From positions 10,240,193 to 10,304,192 of the forward strand of contig SCHM01000001.1 in the NCBI GenBank assembly GCA_004123355.1: a stretch of DNA of 64,000 bases, read 5' to 3'. Position 1 is the stretch's first letter. The number at the start of each line of letters is the position of its first letter. A program made the translations under genes and the position numbers. Source of the stretch: Amphirosellinia nigrospora. Its lineage: Eukaryota; Ascomycota; Sordariomycetes; Xylariales; Xylariaceae. This document shows, piece after piece, positions 1,919-59,605 of this stretch. The notes under the pieces were generated by a model that ran no database searches, was not told where the DNA came from, and worked only from the letters and a program-made list of their open reading frames with translations.

Positions 1919-4076
1919 TTATAGCTCAGCTACATCCTCTTCATTGCCGTCATCAACAACAAACCAATCCCTCACCACAGCTGTTCCCTTCACAACCGTT
2001 TCCCACACCTCTGGCACACAAGTCCCTGGCTTCAATACGTAACACTTTGGCTGAGGTCTCTCGGGAGGCGTATTCCGCACACTCCATACATCCTTGGGCC
2101 CTACCGTAACCAACCCATCCGTCAAGGGCACAAGTCCCGTCGCGATGTCTCGGTTAAACGTGGCGCGCGTGAAGATGGCGTGAGCTGCAGCCGGTGCATA
2201 TGATGGCACCTCGTGCCCAGCCTGGAACACGCGAGTGAAGGAGAAGTTGCCGACTTGGCGCGTCATGCCACCGAGCTCGTCGTCCGTCGTCAGCAGCGGC
2301 GCGTATCCGGCCTCGGCGAACTCAGCCGCGCGCGACCACGGTACTGCCAAGCTGGCCGCCTCGCCTCCGACCCAATTGCATGCGTAGTCGCGGTCGCCGT
2401 ACATGAGGTGCACCTTGACACCGTAGTCGAGGAGGCTGGCTATCGACTCTAGAAACCCTCCGTGGAGGAAGTCGAACGTCCCTATGAATCCGGTGGCAGC
2501 TGCGGTGGAGTGCTCCGAGTAGTTCACCGGCACGCCCAGAGCCGCGAGCACCGACTCTTGTCTTAGGTAGCCGTACATATGCGGGGCTGGAAACGGGTCA
2601 TATTTTGGGATGAGCGACTACAACACTCTGAGTCAGTTATTGCTGTTATAGCGTGAAATATGAGGGTGCAAGAACGTCGTGCTCTGAAAGTTGCCAAAAC
2701 GGGAAGAGAATGTCTCCGAGAATTACGTACTATCGTACCACCCGTGGTCAAAGCTCTGGTAATGCTCCCAGTCGTTCGTGGCGCAATATGCGGATGCATC
2801 GTTGCAGGGCTGCGTGAGGTCCTCTTCCCACTTGGCGGAGAGGCTCATGAAGAGTGGCTCTTTGCCTCTCATTGAATCCTGGCATCTTTGAACCTTTTCC
2901 TTGCAACCGCCCGGTCGCGTCCAGTTATACCATAGTTCCTCGTAAATAGTCTGATTGAAGACCTGGATATCGTAGGTCTTCGCTGCCATGTTAGCGTAGT
3001 GCATCTGAGATTGTTTACCGGGGCATTGCTACGTACGTTGTTGTAAGGGAAGGATATGAAACTCTCGTGCTGGACCACCATATCTATCAAGCCGTCAATG
3101 ATACCTAGGGTATCCAAATGGAGGTAGTGTGCCTCTTTCTCAGTCGAGCTCCCGTTAACGATCTTGTCATTTTGCTGACGTAGGAAGTGGAAAAAGCCAG
3201 GCCCGTAGTGGCCTCCATAGCTTTCGGCCCATAGACTGATGCGATTGTCTGCCGGCTTGTAGTGCGGGAACTCAGCAAACCAAGTTTGAGCGAAATGCCA
3301 GAATGCGTGCGCTGCTTGTGCGGTGGTGTTGGGTGTCTGGGTAAGCTTCTGGCTGCTGAAAGTTCCGACATGATGTGTCAAATTGGATTCTGGTATGCCA
3401 TCGCTGAAGTCGGCAGGCTCTATTTGGAAACCATCGCCATCCTCGCTTACGGTGGCCGTGCCGTTTGTCAACTCGTCGTATGAGAATCCCACCTGTGTTG
3501 GCTGGTCGATGTAGAGCATGTTGACCTCATTATTCCAACTCCAGGGATTGAGATAGGTTGATTTAGAGTCCGATCCTATAAAACAAGGCCCATTCTCTTC
3601 AAGTAATCCCATCATTGACGAGCCACCTGGCCCGCCGTTTAGCCATATTGCTAGAGGGGCATTTGCTGTGTTCTTCCGAGCCTCGAAAAACCAGAAGAAC
3701 CTGGTCCGAGTGTATGTATAAGCGTATGAGCTAGATTGAGAGTATTGACGACTTAGACTTACGTATTGACCGGATAGTCTTGAGTCTCGCCGTTCGGACC
3801 ATCGTCGAGAAAGCCAGGTGGAAGGTGCACGTAGCCAGAGTAGGACTTCACTCCAGCGGTTGTCTCACAGATTTCAGGCTGCAAGGTATTATGTTATCGT
3901 GCCGCTCTAATAATTAATTGATTAAATTGACCTGATCCCACGCTTACCTCTTTGAATGAGATTGTGACGTTCTCATGAAATTTCGATTGAAGCACTGTTA
4001 TCCCCGTAGGCTGAGGAGGGAACTGTGCGAATATGAAGCCGAAGAGGCTATACTCGACGAAAATAATTTTAAGCAT
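1919..4076 (-). CDS. Secreted serine carboxypeptidase (S10 family, carboxypeptidase S1-like)
   Basis: Serine carboxypeptidase that releases C-terminal residues from peptides, probably extracellular. The start at 4076 gives a hydrophobic leader ([18 protein letters not shown]). Exons joined by GT-AG introns (for example 3879-3947) give the oxyanion motif [10 protein letters not shown], then [15 protein letters not shown], the nucleophile motif [11 protein letters not shown] (near 3220), the Asp motif [11 protein letters not shown] (near 2400) and the His motif [10 protein letters not shown] (near 2210). Several N-glycosylation sequons are present. The reading around 3020-3035 needs either a very short intron or a frame correction. 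After the intron at 2618-2730 one extra A in an AAAA run (near 2605) breaks the frame. The intron at 2618-2730 is homologous to one in the flavoprotein gene at 57.6-59.6 kb (see findings). It converges on the aspartic protease gene. Confidence 0.88.
2618..2730 (-). mobile_element. Candidate introner-like element (intron copy A)
   Basis: A 113-nt intron in the carboxypeptidase gene, donor GTACGT and acceptor TTGTAG. Its first 49 nt match the intron at 58498-58644 at 38 positions, and its last 26 nt match at 23 positions; donor and acceptor line up exactly. A shared block also lies in the middle (TGAGGGT...AGAA on the + strand). The host genes are unrelated, so shared ancestry of the introns themselves is the simplest explanation. 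'Introner-like' is an inference from two copies. Confidence 0.6.
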
Positions 4077-7360: not shown

Positions 7361-9411
7361 ATGCCTACCCTTGACGTGAGTGAACTTAATGTTGTGGTGG
7401 CAATTCTTGGTAAGTAGGGAACAAGTATGGAAGAACATTAAGACGAATACTTACTCTATCATCAAGGCTCGTTTGCCGTGGTATATGGCTTGTTTGCTGT
7501 TTGGTTCAAGAGCGTGTGGTATCTTGGCGAGGCTTGTTCGTCATCCTTCCTTCTTCATCTAGAAGCAGGATTCACTAATAGCCATTTAGTGCCAGCTTTC
7601 ATTATCGGCGTTATCCTGGGCCCTGTGGCAGCAAAATTTCTTGATCCAGAAAGATGGGTTCAGCAGCATTAGGTCAAGAACCTACAATCACGCTTGGCGT
7701 AATGAGAGTGATGATTGGGATTCAGCTGTAGGCACGATTTTCGCTCACGACGCCTAGTGACCTCTCCTTCACCAGGCACTCCAATGTCCGGAACTATATA
7801 GCTGATAAATATTCAATAGCGTGATTGCGGGATACCAGCTGCCTGCGAGATATCCCCATTGGCACTGGAAGGAACTCGCTGTCTGTCTTATTCCCATAAT
7901 GACTCTCATGTGGTTGGCAACCTCGATGTGCATTTTTGCAACAATACCTAATGTATCGCTTCTGGCTACTCTGGTTATTGGTGCCTGCGTTACGTCAACG
8001 GACCCTATTTTATCTCAAGCTGTTGCTAAAGGCCCTTTCGCCGACAATATGTTCCTCGACCACTCCGCGAGATCATTTCTGCCGAAGCAGGTGCAAATGA
8101 CGGTTTTGCATCCCCGTTCTTGATGCTCTCGGTCAATCTCATGCGTCTATCTGCTGGACGTCCAGAGACCATAGTCGAGACAATAATCGAAAGGGATACC
8201 AGTAGAGGTGTGGGATCGCATCCCGATGATATCGGTATTGCGATCGGGAATTGGGCGATAGAGACTCTTGTGTACATTGTCTTATTGGCCAGTATCTATG
8301 GCGTCGCGACAGGATACTGTGCTAGAATTGCCATTCGCTTTTCGTTATCTCACAAGTGGATTGATACGGAAAGCTATCTTCTCTTCCCCACCGCGTTGGG
8401 TGTGAGTGATTCCTCGAAATGGTGTTGGCGTCCTTGTAGAAACGTGGCTTGGCTAACTTCGCTAGTTATTCATCGTTGGAACTTGTGGAGCTATTGGGAC
8501 AAGCGATCTTCTCGCCTGCTTTGTTGCCGGATGTGCCTTGAATTGGGATGGGCAATTTTTAGCCGAAACCGAGCGACGACATGATGAGGTCAATTCTTGC
8601 ATTGACGTATTACTGAACTTTGGCGGCTTTATGTACGTCGGAACAGCCATACCATGGGGCAATTCCATCAACCTGATACCACTGGTATCACTTTACCACG
8701 ATTACTTGGCCTTGGAATCCTCGTTCTGCTTTTCCGTCGCATCCCTGCCCTGCTCATTACCTACAAGGCTATGCCCTCGGCGGTCAAAAATTGGAAAGAG
8801 GCTGTATTCATGGGCTATTTTGGCCCTATAGGCGTTGGGGCGGTATATTATCTTGAGCATACCCGCCTTCTATTCCATTCGGACAACCCACGCGAAAAGG
8901 CACTGGTGGATGCTCTTTGTCCAGGTAAGATCAAAGGTAAATTACTAGACTCCTTACTGACTATCCTGCAGTTGTCTACTTTCTTGTTTTCGTATCGATC
9001 GTCATTCACGGCCTTTCTATACCGGCATTAAGCTCATTCTATAGATACTACGGCGTGAGCACAATCACAGATGGTAAGAAATCGGAACTACTTCCTTCTC
9101 TTTTTGACGACATCGAAAACATTAAGTTTCCTCTCTGAGCCAATAAGTCTTCAAGCCTTTGGACCCCCAAAAATTGCGCCCCGAATGTTACAGCTAACCC
9201 CGAGTGTTTTAGATGCAGTAGAGCTTCAGAGGAGAAGTATCTACGTTCCGACACCCCCAATGCTGTCAAGGGAGACCAAGACACCTTTGTCGCTTATAAT
9301 CGCTTCTTCCGTCCATTAGCCAGTCTCAGCATTCTTCCACTGGCTCGCACACCCAGCTGTGAAGATCAAGATAGCACTTTTAGGGAGATTAGAGAAGAGA
9401 TAAAGAAATAG
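7361..9411 (+). CDS. Plasma-membrane Na+(K+)/H+ antiporter, CPA1 fungal Nha1/Sod2 type
   Basis: Monovalent cation/proton antiporter for Na+/K+ extrusion at the plasma membrane. The start MPTLDVSELNVVVAILG matches fungal Nha1-type N-termini. Conserved membrane segments follow across introns: FAVVYGLFAVWFKSVWYLGEA, PAFIIGVILGPVAAKFLDPE, and the ion-binding segment GACVTSTDPILSQAV. After those come ISAEAGANDGFASPFLML, GAIGTSDLLACFVAGCALNWDG, NFGGFMYVGTAIPW and TLPRLLGLGILVLLFRRIPAL. GT-AG introns include one starting at about 7414 and one ending at about 7821. Frame breaks lie near 7656, 8050, 8655 and 9100, most explained by one missing base. The C-terminal tail is short compared with yeast Nha1 and ends at TAG 9409-9411. 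Family call is firm. Confidence 0.85.
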
Positions 9412-46798: not shown

Positions 46799-49182
46799 TG
46801 TATATGAGCAAGGCTCAAATATGTTCCAAAAGAGACCACTAATTGTGCACGAGCTAAATAAAGGTTGATTAAGTTTAGAGATAGTGCCTTTCGGATAGTC
46901 ACTTTCAGAAGTATTAGCAAGTAGTAGGTGACACAACCTACCGGAAACATGAAAGGAAACTTGAATATACTGTGTAGTAAATGGGTGACTCATCGTGGTT
47001 ACGAGATGCACCACCCTTGTTCATTGAGTCTCCTCCTCATGGGTATTGTCACTTGTCGCCGTCCGTCCCCGAACAACCTTGGCACAAAATCCGAAGTCGG
47101 AGCACTGATCCAGTCATACGGTTGAGGAACTATCATGATAAGTTGCACCAAATGTCGGCTTACCAGAACGAATAAGTGATTCAAAACGAAAGTTACGAAG
47201 CTATATCGACTTCTAAGACAGTTGTTACGTATCCCCACTATATTCTTAATGCATCGGCGTTTGGATAAATAGAAACAACTTACCCGTTTCTAAAACTTCT
47301 CATACATGACAGCGGCATTGTCGATATCAATCTCATCCGAAACAACGAAGCTTGGTTTCGTATTGCATGTGATGTCCAAATCTTCTGTACGTTTTGATAT
47401 TGCATCATCCTGTAGGTAAAAAAAAAAAAAGTCCCTAATAGGTAAAGGGAATTGGCTGGCCGACCTTGTCAAACAACTTTCCAAAACTCAAATCTTATCA
47501 TACACTTACGGAAAGCCTCAGTTGAGACACCTGAGCCACTAACAGTGATTGGTTAGTTGGCGCACTTAAGCATCAGAAGAACTCCTACCCCAGCAAGGTA
47601 AATAAGCGTACAACAAATCTACTTAGCATCCAAGCGCTGAGGAGCAAGGTCTACAACGAACGCGCGTAAAGCATCAAAGTAGTGAAATAGGTGACTATCA
47701 AACCAATAAGTCTAGCTCCTAGTTTTAAGGCGTTGAAGTCAGCATACAATACTCCTAAGCACTAGGCTTTTCCCGTTCAAAATATCAACATTCCGCGTAC
47801 ACTAAATCGGGGTTTTAGCTTAGAAAGTTGTTTAAGTAAACAGAAATAGTTCCGAGAGTTACACACTGCGCCGCTGCAAATCTAGGGTTCGCAATTGCGA
47901 TACCGACCGTCAGCAACCTTGAAGGGCATGACAGCACGGCTTCCCCTTCTGAAGAGAGTCAACTCTTGTCCCACTTCATTCACTATACCATGATTTTCGT
48001 ATTTGAATATGTACCCCGAAGTTATACTAACCGTGAATCGTAATTCTGCTACAATTCTCTCTTCACGAATGCTCTAGCTCGTGAAGCAGGAAAGGATTCT
48101 CTCGGCCACACTCTCTCTCCTACAGAGCTTCACTTACTACCAAAAAACCAAGCCCGCAGATCGTGGTGTGCGTTATTATCGGTCATGTTTTCCTTGGGTG
48201 GTGTGAAACGGGGAGTCTAATAGTCGCGACGCTAACGACGACGATGCCGTCCGAATGCTTTATCTCGGGTTCCCCACCTCTTCCATCTACACTTTAAAGG
48301 GCTCGACATATCTAACTGGCTTCATTATAGGTAGCGGGACGATTGTTGAATACGCTGACGATGGGTTATGTGCAGCGGATAGGAGGGTCCAGGTTGATAA
48401 TAATTCAAGAAATATTCGAGTTCAAGGAAACTCTCTTATATAAAGTATTTGGTCACTGTACATAAATGCCTATTTATTAATTGCAGGCTATTATGTGTTC
48501 TCTCTCTGTTTGACATGCCGTTCCCCGTGCAGAATTGCTGGAGCTCTCACGGATTTCTGCAGGGGCCAAGAAGCCATAGTTTGTGGGCATAGGGTGGTCT
48601 GGCTGACCTGGATGTAGGAACACGTGACCTAACCTCCGAAGATTCCCCATTTGAGTCTGTATACCCCTTGGGAATAGCTTCACCTGGCGTTAGTATCCAC
48701 TTCTCCGTGACAGGAGCTGACACAGTGAGGCCTGATTCATCAGTCACCTGATCTTGTGCGTTTCGCGCTAGAATGACGTATATAGTAGATCCCAAAGTGC
48801 TATTACTTGGTTGCCCTCTCGCCTACCTATTCTATAAGCAGGTTTTTTTGGGGCGATTGGGGCGATCTGGTTGGCCGTTAAATATCCCGGGTTCAGAATT
48901 TACAGTGGAGGAAGTACCTAGATAGACCAGTATGCCCCGCATTCCCCGCTCCCCACACCACTTCAGCTCGTAAGCCTCATCTTGGATTTATAAGGTTACC
49001 TCCGAGTGCCAAATAGCAGGAGTTCACTAAGAAACCCCTACTCCGTACCAAAGTGGCCGTTACCCATCTAAAGCTTAAACCAACCGTTCGGGAGTCCATG
49101 TCAGTCTTCCCGGGAGCCGCTATAACGCTTGAACTTGATTTGGTAGAATATGGGGCCCAGTATTATTGCGCTAACCTTTGAA
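46799..49182. other. Gene-free region of about 2.4 kb
   Basis: No gene supported. It contains an A-homopolymer near 47418-47429 and otherwise ordinary AT-rich text up to the left target duplication of the MITE. Confidence 0.5.
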
Positions 49183-57634: not shown

Positions 57635-59605
57635 CTAACTAGCAATTTCCGACATATAACCAGCCCTCTCAGCTGCTCCTTTGCCAGCTTTCTTCCCATG
57701 ATGACTCCCATCGTCAATCCGCTACCACCTGGATAGTTATCGAAAAAGAGACCTCCTAGAATCTCACCCGCGCACCACAGGCCCTCGATTGGCTTTCGAG
57801 TAACTTCACTTAAAACCTGTGCCTTGGGCGTCGCAGCGAGGCCGCCAAAAGTGAAGGTGATGCCACATGTCACCTCGACGGCCTGAAATGGCCCTTTCTC
57901 CAGCGGCATTGCCCAGTTGCTTTTGGGCAGAGACAGACCACGCGAGTTGCTCTGTGTTGACAAGCCATCTCTTATTGCTGGATCAAAGACTCGCGTTGGC
58001 TGTTCCGTCTGGAAGCTCTTGCAAGCCTCGTTGAATTGCTCGATAGTATCTAAGAACTGTTTCTTGTTTGTTAATCCCTTGTCGACGAGAATGTCCGCGA
58101 GGTCCTCGAGTGTCTCGGCTCTTAGGTTAGTCGTCACATCGTCCGCATATTCCTCTTCTCGCAGCCACTTTGAGCCGTCGGCATCCCACACCTGAAATGC
58201 GATGCCTTGGGGTTGTTTGAGAATCTCTCGTCCAAAAACAGCATAAGTGAAGTTACGAAGATCGAAGCCCTCATCAACAAATCTTCTCCCGTTCACATTT
58301 ACCATGATGCCGAGCGGATAGCCCGACTTTGTGAATTGGTTTGTTAATATCCGATCTCCTGAGTTTCGAGGTGAGTTGGCATCCCAAGCGACGGAATGGC
58401 AGCCCGAGTAATGCCCTTCGTGTGGATCGAAACATGTTAGTCGAGGTGTCTGGGTCAGGCGAGGGGATCGGGCACCGGAGGGTTTTCTACATACCGACTA
58501 CAATACTCGGAGTCAGTTATCGCCATTTGGAATTGATTTGTGAGGGTTTTAGAATCTTCTAAGCACTCTCTTGTCCTAATAGAGGAAACCTCATACTATG
58601 AAAGCTGCCAAAACAAGCAGACATTGATTCCGAGAATTGCTTACCTAGCATCGCCCGAATATTCTCCGCCATTCGATGTCCATCTCCCACATTGTACTTA
58701 GTACCCCGTACGTGCGCGACATCCCAGCCAGGCCCGAGATATTTTGCCCGAAGAGCCGGTGAAGCCTGAAACCCGCCGCATGCTAAGACTACGCCGCCCC
58801 CGGCTGCGATTGTGCTGAAATTTCCATTGCTGTACACTTTGATGCCAAGGACCGCATTTGTAGTGGCATCCGTGATAAGATCAACAGCTGGGCAGCTGAA
58901 ACGCACATTAACACCGCTTTTCTGCGCTAGTTCAAGGTACCATTGAAATAGCCCCTTTCCCTGTCCTAGTTCACGATGTTAATGCATTGCGAAGAGTACT
59001 GCCATGCGCAATCGGGCTCCTACCAATCATATTCATGACCATACCTCCCCAGAACTTATATCTCCCTTCTGTCAAAAATGACTGTCTATTAAATGACAGC
59101 ATGAACCGAGCACCATTATCCATCAACCACTGCACAGCTTCTCTTGATTTGTCTACGAGGAGATTAGCCAGGTCCGGATCTGCTCGCCCCTTTGTCACCC
59201 GAGCAATATCCTGCAGCATAATCAGTCGGGCATGCATCAAATACTGGTGGGATGATTACTGCGTGGAAATCCGCCTTTGAATATGGTTCCATCTCAATTT
59301 GATCAATAAGTTCTTGCGACAAGCCCTTGGTGCCATTTGGCTGGTATAGGTAGGGCAGCAAATCAGATAACCCATCGAAACAACATCGGAAGGCAGCTGC
59401 CGTAAAAAACTGAGTTCGGTTAGTATCCAAGCTGAGATATGAGAAGTAAGTCACTGCAGTTTACCGTATTGCCTCCAGCATCATCAAGTGGTGCTTTTTC
59501 TATAAGTAGAGTTCGTGCCCCCGCTTGAGCGGCCGTGATGGCGGCTGAAAATCCGGCATTTCCGCCCCCAACAACAATGACATCGAAAGTTTCGTCAAAT
59601 GCCAT
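57635..59605 (-). CDS. FAD-dependent dehydrogenase, fumarate-reductase/tricarballylate-dehydrogenase (TcuA)-like
   Basis: A flavoprotein of the FAD_binding_2 family that oxidises C-C bonds in carboxylic acids. The start at 59605 reads MAFDETFDVIVVGGGNAGFS (dinucleotide-binding motif). Exons joined by introns give LLPYLYQPNGTKGLSQELID, KGRADPDLANLLVDKSREAV, FMLSFNRQSFLTEGRYKFWG and GKGLFQWYLELAQKSGVNV. Then VVLACGGFQASPALRAKYLG, GCHSVAWDANSPRN, MVNVNGRRFVDEGFDLRNFT and the C-terminal FAD contact WCAGEILGGLFFDNYPGGSG. This resembles bacterial TcuA more than mitochondrial SdhA. One intron (58498-58644) is a candidate introner-like element, separated by only 3 nt from the next intron. The last 20 residues need a one-base correction to read AGKGAAERAGYMSEIAS. 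It lies tail-to-tail with the carboxyltransferase gene. Confidence 0.85.
58498..58644 (-). mobile_element. Candidate introner-like element (intron copy B)
   Basis: A 147-nt intron, donor GTAAGC, acceptor TTGTAG, within the flavoprotein gene. It is homologous to the intron at 2618-2730 at both ends and in a middle block (see that entry for match counts), with about 30 nt extra in the middle. It is followed after TCG by a second donor, GTATGT. Confidence 0.6.

Follow-up and report, generated by a model that had tools for sequence, protein, structure and literature searches.

A dispersed family of introner-like introns with a YA/TG insertion preference in a Xylariaceae genome

The origin of new spliceosomal introns is a long-standing open question. 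In the Dothideomycete fungi Fulvia fulva, Dothistroma septosporum and Zymoseptoria tritici, introner-like elements (ILEs) are described, in the portions of PMC4457414 drawn on here, as near-identical spliceosomal introns that occur by the hundred in unrelated genes and degenerate with age. The relevant part of PMC8469720 attributes to van der Burgt et al., in their work on ILEs, a preference for AG/GY (a slash within a site marks the insertion point throughout). For the Xylariales, the sites of stwintrons are reported to be random and unbiased in the corresponding sections of PMC12403724, and the large survey in PMC9860276, in the passages used here, presents ascomycete introners as an outlier with neither TIRs nor TSDs. 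A route linked to RNA or transcription has been argued for other fungal introners in parts of PMC8469720 and PMC12403724.

The window analysed here is a stretch of 64,000 nucleotides, in which the initial annotation had singled out two minus-strand introns (copies 1 and 2 in the table) as homologous sequences in unrelated genes. Their coordinates and the counts given for them are exact: both introns run GT..TAG, and identical bases occupy 38 of the first 49 positions and 23 of the last 26, a total of 61 of 75, compared with 40 of 75 for the best of 20,000 shuffles. The host proteins are indeed unrelated, one being an FAD-binding oxidoreductase and the other serine-carboxypeptidase-like, the latter as read from one upstream exon only. 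The proposal that the two belong to an introner-like family is likewise upheld by genome-wide searches, which return many more copies, and by a third complete copy in the window itself.

Table. Introner copies and associated features in the window (positions count from the first letter of the window)
Feature	Position	Strand	Description
Introner copy 1	58498..58644	-	Full length, 147 nt, GTAAGC..TGTAG; FAD-binding oxidoreductase gene; site CTAG/TCG
Near-terminal inverted repeat, 5' half (nt 5-16), copy 1	58629..58640	-	11 of 12 consensus positions complementary to 3' half
Near-terminal inverted repeat, 3' half, copy 1	58500..58511	-	Between branch-point-like AACTGAC and acceptor
Branch-point-like element AACTGAC, copy 1	58512..58518	-	Read from sequence; contains RYURAY
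3-nt exon TCG between copy 1 and next intron candidate	58495..58497	-	Inferred from frame and relatives' spacing
Ordinary 79-nt intron candidate	58416..58494	-	GTATGT..CTAAC..GAAG; frame continuity and relatives' spacing
Introner copy 2	2618..2730	-	113-nt deletion variant, GTACGT..TGTAG; serine-carboxypeptidase-like gene; site GATA/TCG
Introner copy 3	9074..9212	+	139 nt, GTAAGA..TTTTAG; site GATG/ATG; diverged (53 bits)
Weak match to introner positions 1-51	47817..47866	-	16 bits, E 0.0016; doubtful remnant

The motif RYURAY, found in the branch-point-like element of copy 1, is quoted as the Aspergillus branch-point consensus in the part of PMC12403724 that deals with it. Directly downstream of the predicted 3-nt exon that follows copy 1 lies the ordinary intron candidate, whose AAG acceptor is unusual; with the exon included, the spacing of conserved residues is that of 87 of the 88 motif-matching relatives (120 listed). 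Copy 1 and the adjoining candidate are possibly excised in two ordered steps. Among the matches listed, the named relatives of the spliced flavoprotein belong to Nemania, Xylaria, Rosellinia and other Xylariaceae, at 83-86%. The best-scoring named relative among these matches (86%) carries the label Lasiodiplodia mahajangana, which belongs to a Dothideomycete; we take this label as doubtful because the other relatives listed near it are Xylariaceae. The ITS region likewise appears to be of Xylariales type. With protein relatives in the Xylariaceae (Sordariomycetes), the Dothideomycete connection suggested by the initial annotation very probably does not hold here. The borders of copy 2 are clean at A/TC, and the carboxypeptidase-like frame is lost ~20 nt downstream at an A-run (window ~2590-2617, minus strand), which reflects either disruption of the gene or a fault in the assembly. 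Around copy 3 the frame is open on both sides, in phase 1; the host is a membrane-protein gene, presumably a cation/proton antiporter, and a Pfam search with its short spliced peptide gave no match.

We searched the assembly to which the window belongs, 48.1 Mb in 11 contigs. The 147-nt intron gave 40 scored matches of 83 candidates, many of them full-length, the best non-self match among those scored being at 88%; the 113-nt intron gave 56 matches, many of which are two halves of one element, and two further family members used as queries gave 40 scored of 90 and 40 scored of 95. A 3'-end pattern allowing up to 3 mismatches matched the 48.1 Mb at 277 places (148 and 129 per strand), compared with 1 for the reversed control, and a 5'-end pattern matched the same genome at 223 places, compared with 10 in the control. 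The first 100 places were listed for each end pattern, and the listed places form 214 clusters, some of which are the two ends of one element; 158 loci were read, 34 planned short stretches lying outside the sample. A profile started from 26 copies yielded, at E ≤0.01, 192 elements in these loci and the window, and the 132 that match the whole profile are the set counted below, the other 60, partial or weaker, being excluded. All 132 run GT..AG, with 102 TAG and 30 CAG acceptors, which is partly so by construction because the profile and the search patterns include the intron ends. Lengths range from 102 to 169 nt, with 70 copies at 145-147 nt. Of 22 copies that were absent from the listed places, 7 would be caught by the 3' pattern, and a hand estimate scales the 277 matches to roughly 900 copies (about 500-2000). 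The family comprises a few hundred copies or more. As an observation on the same assembly, three 5.8S rRNA genes score above the cut-off near one end of contig C10 (104-257, 43832-43985 and 58339-58492; 39 scored of 1190 candidates), where the rDNA array may have been collapsed.

The copies appear to lie largely within genes. With the introner spliced out, 123 of the 132 copies have at least one sense frame that is open over ±60 nt, compared with 76 for antisense frames, 76 without splicing and 94 after a 1-nt slip; over ±90 nt the corresponding numbers are 104, 46, 50 and 57. Random window positions are open at ±60 nt in 54% of cases, and at that openness the 9 closed junctions, at least one of which (copy 1) is closed owing to the adjacent intron, would allow up to ~20 non-coding copies (15%). 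As far as reading frames tell, the copies thus appear to lie mostly, if not all, on the sense strand of coding exons. A Pfam domain extends over the junction in all ten spliced peptides that were picked for long open exons. Among 20 spliced peptides drawn at random from the remaining 64 three-kb copies, 7 have a Pfam match (6 over the junction, 1 touching it) and 13 have none, including that of copy 1, whose short flanks end at an intron. The initial annotation had called for many genic copies set exactly between GT and AG, and this is what the frames and the ten chosen peptides display; the outcomes that it had named as contrary, an absence of further intronic copies or copies mainly outside genes within a larger repeat, are not what we find.

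In the cases examined, protein relatives align without gaps over the spliced junction. In an AAA-protein gene, the introner interrupts an ATG codon; Xylaria species head the named relatives of the protein among the matches listed, reaching 86% across 98% of the query. The methionine of this codon is kept in 76 of 77 motif-bearing relatives (120 listed, 43 without the motif), so that A/TG very likely predates the insertion. Another introner (locus L031, 1501-1629) interrupts the gene of a Prp2-like spliceosomal helicase, which is gap-free through the junction against its best solved chains, 6rm8 and 6fa9, both of which bear the name 'Putative mRNA splicing factor', and which we name Prp2-like because DHX16 and PRP2 come next among the chains.

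The unit is a ~147-nt repeat, the ends of which are its splice sites, and where it meets the exons no bases are detectably duplicated or lost. Flush target-site duplications (TSDs) of 4 to 8 nt are present at 0 of 132 copies (control mean 0.69 at 4 nt); flush repeats of 3 nt number 6, where the controls average 2.16 and reach 6 at most, and those of 2 nt number 7, compared with 8.4. What is new here is a strong target preference for YA/TG, unlike AG/G proto-splice sites. Among the 132 copies the exon bases are T at +1 in 98, A at -1 in 71, C or T at -2 in 101 and G at +2 in 65. A/T flanks 61 of the copies, compared with 867 of 14,388 flank positions (6%), and the full YA/TG is found at 31, compared with 124 of 14,388. 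T without A is seen at 37 sites, A without T at 10 and neither at 24, and the two bases are dependent (odds ratio 4.0, p 0.001). The flanks of proto-splice sites are not matched, with G at -1 in 25 and at +1 in 5 of the 132 copies.

No search pattern selects on the flanks. In a separate genome-wide pattern, the base after exact 3' ends is T in 33, A in 9, C in 7 and G in 1, a tally taken from 100 of 110 places, as listed, and overlapping the 132-copy sample; among 7 complete copies outside the listed places, A/T is found in 2 and T at +1 in 6. We rejected templated exon flanks as an explanation, given that the flank bases common to alike copies, including those at least 80% identical, are confined to -2 to +2. 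A frame-based set of ordinary introns gave 49 candidates, compared with 26 and 22 for two false-signal controls; A/T is found at 1 of these 49, which lean to G on both sides, the set being noisy and only indicative. A control set of ordinary introns chosen by codon score contained 0 candidates at the chosen cut. Intron phase could be called in 62 of the 132 copies (70 uncalled) and is phase 1 in 37 of the 62; we do not count this excess as an independent feature, since the way in which YAT and YATG are distributed over the frames accounts for much of it. The A/T sites nevertheless lean to phase 1 beyond the YAT background (22, 4 and 3 sites in phases 1, 2 and 0, compared with 116, 62 and 40), and the other sites fall in phases 0, 1 and 2 in 11, 15 and 7 cases.

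Within the unit we observed a near-terminal inverted repeat, in which nucleotides 5-16 of the 5' end are complementary to positions -3 to -14 of the 3' end at 11 of 12 consensus positions, a level attained by 30 of 3000 shuffles. The ends are paired in the minimum-energy folds of 68 of 132 copies, compared with 78 of 660 shuffles, and RNAalifold predicts an 8-pair hairpin that ends 2 nt short of the 3' end. The inverted repeat displays no covariation (1004 paired cells, compared with 1000.6 shuffled), and the copies fold no more stably than shuffles (mean z -0.42 for 66 copies; -0.67 for the reversed control, 40 copies). It is therefore likely a feature of the founder, or one that acts only during propagation. 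The secondary-structure potential raised in the initial annotation does not extend beyond the inverted repeat, the overall folding energy showing nothing unusual. Two loose groups are distinguished by position 4, which is C in 63 copies, A in 67 and T in 2. One internal deletion joint is common to three copies, including copy 2, on contigs C1, C4 and C6, from which we infer that the deletion derivative has itself multiplied.

Of the 72 three-kb loci, 13 contain 2-4 copies, in no case on mixed strands, and 32 of 33 neighbour pairs within 1.5 kb are on the same strand, with 1 opposite; the pairs are not independent, one four-copy gene giving six. Four copies of unequal divergence lie on one strand within 1.65 kb at C1:10817734-10819379 (locus L037). 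Neighbours are no nearer to each other in sequence than random copies are (similarity 0.643 compared with 0.669, 28 pairs), and only 2 of 56 directed comparisons have a neighbour in the same gene as their best match. Local re-insertion in cis is thus unsupported, and the copies appear to have arrived from a common dispersed pool. Among the copies read, the two distinct copies most alike are 95% identical, and nearest neighbours have a median identity of 82%, so that current activity, which the initial annotation had raised as a possibility, is not borne out.

From these observations, we consider it probable that the window introns represent one Xylariaceae introner family, spread by reinsertion of spliced intron RNA into transcribed exon DNA. 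The spliceosome would release the intron RNA, as a lariat or an opened molecule, with the near-terminal inverted repeat perhaps keeping its ends together; the RNA would enter exon DNA under transcription, either through reverse splicing into the displaced strand or through break repair patched with RNA, and would then be copied into DNA. Since the next transcript splices the introner out, the host gene would be little harmed. Sense-biased, seamless insertion into exons without TSD points to a route tied to transcription and RNA, and the ordinary intron candidate retained 3 nt from copy 1 argues against gene replacement by cDNA. A point against the RNA route is that YA/TG is not predicted by plain reverse splicing at proto-splice sites. 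The lack of covariation in the inverted repeat, the ordinary fold stability, the 9 closed junctions and the 13 of 20 randomly drawn peptides devoid of a Pfam match also weigh against this reading. Because the site is YA/TG and not AG/G, its position would be set by something besides ordinary proto-splice choice, which may be a nuclease, a preferred break site or a strand-transfer specificity of a new kind. More tentatively, and with rather less confidence than in the RNA route as such, we hypothesize that the intron gain is both RNA-mediated and enzyme-targeted, with sequence-specific integration at coding-strand YA/TG that reflects neither proto-splice choice nor a TSD-making transposase.

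The same inverted repeat would also suit a MITE-like non-autonomous DNA element that carries both splice sites, inserts blunt or nearly blunt at CA/TG-like dyads and survives mainly in sense exons. The end-pairing folds, the partial dyad symmetry of the target (CA/TG), the dependence between A at -1 and T at +1, and frame counts that are compatible with up to ~15% non-coding copies all fit such an element; we nevertheless regard it as unlikely, given that TSDs are absent, that many neutral intergenic copies would be expected where just 9 of 132 copies are without an open sense frame, that neighbour pairs share a strand with one exception, and that the longest of the 132 copies measures 169 nt. 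Helitrons insert between A and T without TSD and have the ends 5'-TC ... CTRR-3'. A rolling-circle element of this kind would account for the A/T sites, the lack of TSD and the hairpin near the 3' end, yet the present ends are GT and mostly GTAG or GCAG, 37 sites have T alone, 10 A alone and 24 neither, and the distribution is genic with a sense bias, which together make a Helitron-like origin very improbable.

Descent from the stwintrons of the same order deserves somewhat more credit than a Helitron, and less than a MITE-like element: canonical introns could have been cropped from Xylariales [D1,2] sister stwintrons and multiplied as in Hypoxylon sp. CO27-5. The inverted-repeat architecture between branch point and acceptor is alike, and the 113-nt form is a multiplying deletion derivative. 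However, of the features of [D1,2] sister stwintrons, the internal junction YAGTRNGY is found in 0 of 132 interiors and the preceding G of a GGT start in only 25 of 132; the donor with the published 5'-NTIRE (GTATGTATAAAAAC) has 0 exact matches, and 39 with one mismatch compared with 15 in the control; and the sites here are biased, with hundreds of copies and not tens. This origin is quite unlikely. A series of duplications of introns or genes, whether local or segmental, with no dispersal of mobile introns, would explain the loci that contain 2-4 copies, including the locus with four. It is hardly credible in view of the differing host genes, of flanks that are unshared beyond ±2 nt even at ≥80% identity, and of the rarity with which a same-gene neighbour is the best match.

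Returning to RNA-mediated reinsertion, a target motif combined with the lack of TSD amounts to a fingerprint for the integration step. The YA/TG motif can be used for finding the responsible activity, for predicting insertion sites and for testing reverse splicing against break repair, and an integration activity that targets YA/TG would, if it exists, constitute a distinct route of intron gain. Our results indicate that canonical introners, besides stwintrons, have spread in Xylariaceae. Stwintron papers aside, we found no report of a canonical Xylariaceae introner family in the literature as covered here, the tables and supplements of PMC9860276 and PMC12403724 lying outside that scope.

Among the closest described systems are the Xylariales stwintrons, which, according to the relevant parts of PMC12403724, resemble the present family in belonging to the same order, in the absence of TSD, in multiplying deletion derivatives and in a near-terminal inverted repeat placed between branch point and acceptor. 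They differ in that the present elements are single canonical introns of ~147 nt in hundreds of copies, whereas tens are described there, and in that no site bias is reported in those parts, whereas a plain one is found here. The repeats themselves also differ, being AATTCTCGGA with TCCGAGTRTT in the present family and GUAUAAAAAC with GUUUUUAUGU in the stwintron NTIRE-10, as given in the same source; a search for the 5' element of NTIRE-10, taken together with the donor, gave 0 exact matches. The Pezizomycotina introners of Gozashti et al. 2022, in the part of PMC9860276 that describes them, are likewise ascomycete families without TSD, with direct insertion in Alternaria, whereas neither TIRs nor a target motif like YA/TG are reported for them in that part. 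The algal DNA-transposon introners of Huff et al., as relayed in portions of PMC9860276 and PMC12403724, share inverted repeats near the ends; they generate TSDs and recruit one of their two splice sites from target sequence, whereas the present elements carry both splice sites, with TSD unseen. With the Dothideomycete ILEs the family has in common hundreds of copies of similar introns in unrelated genes. Those elements belong to another fungal class, and their target, in the account available to us, is AG/GY, whereas it is YA/TG here.
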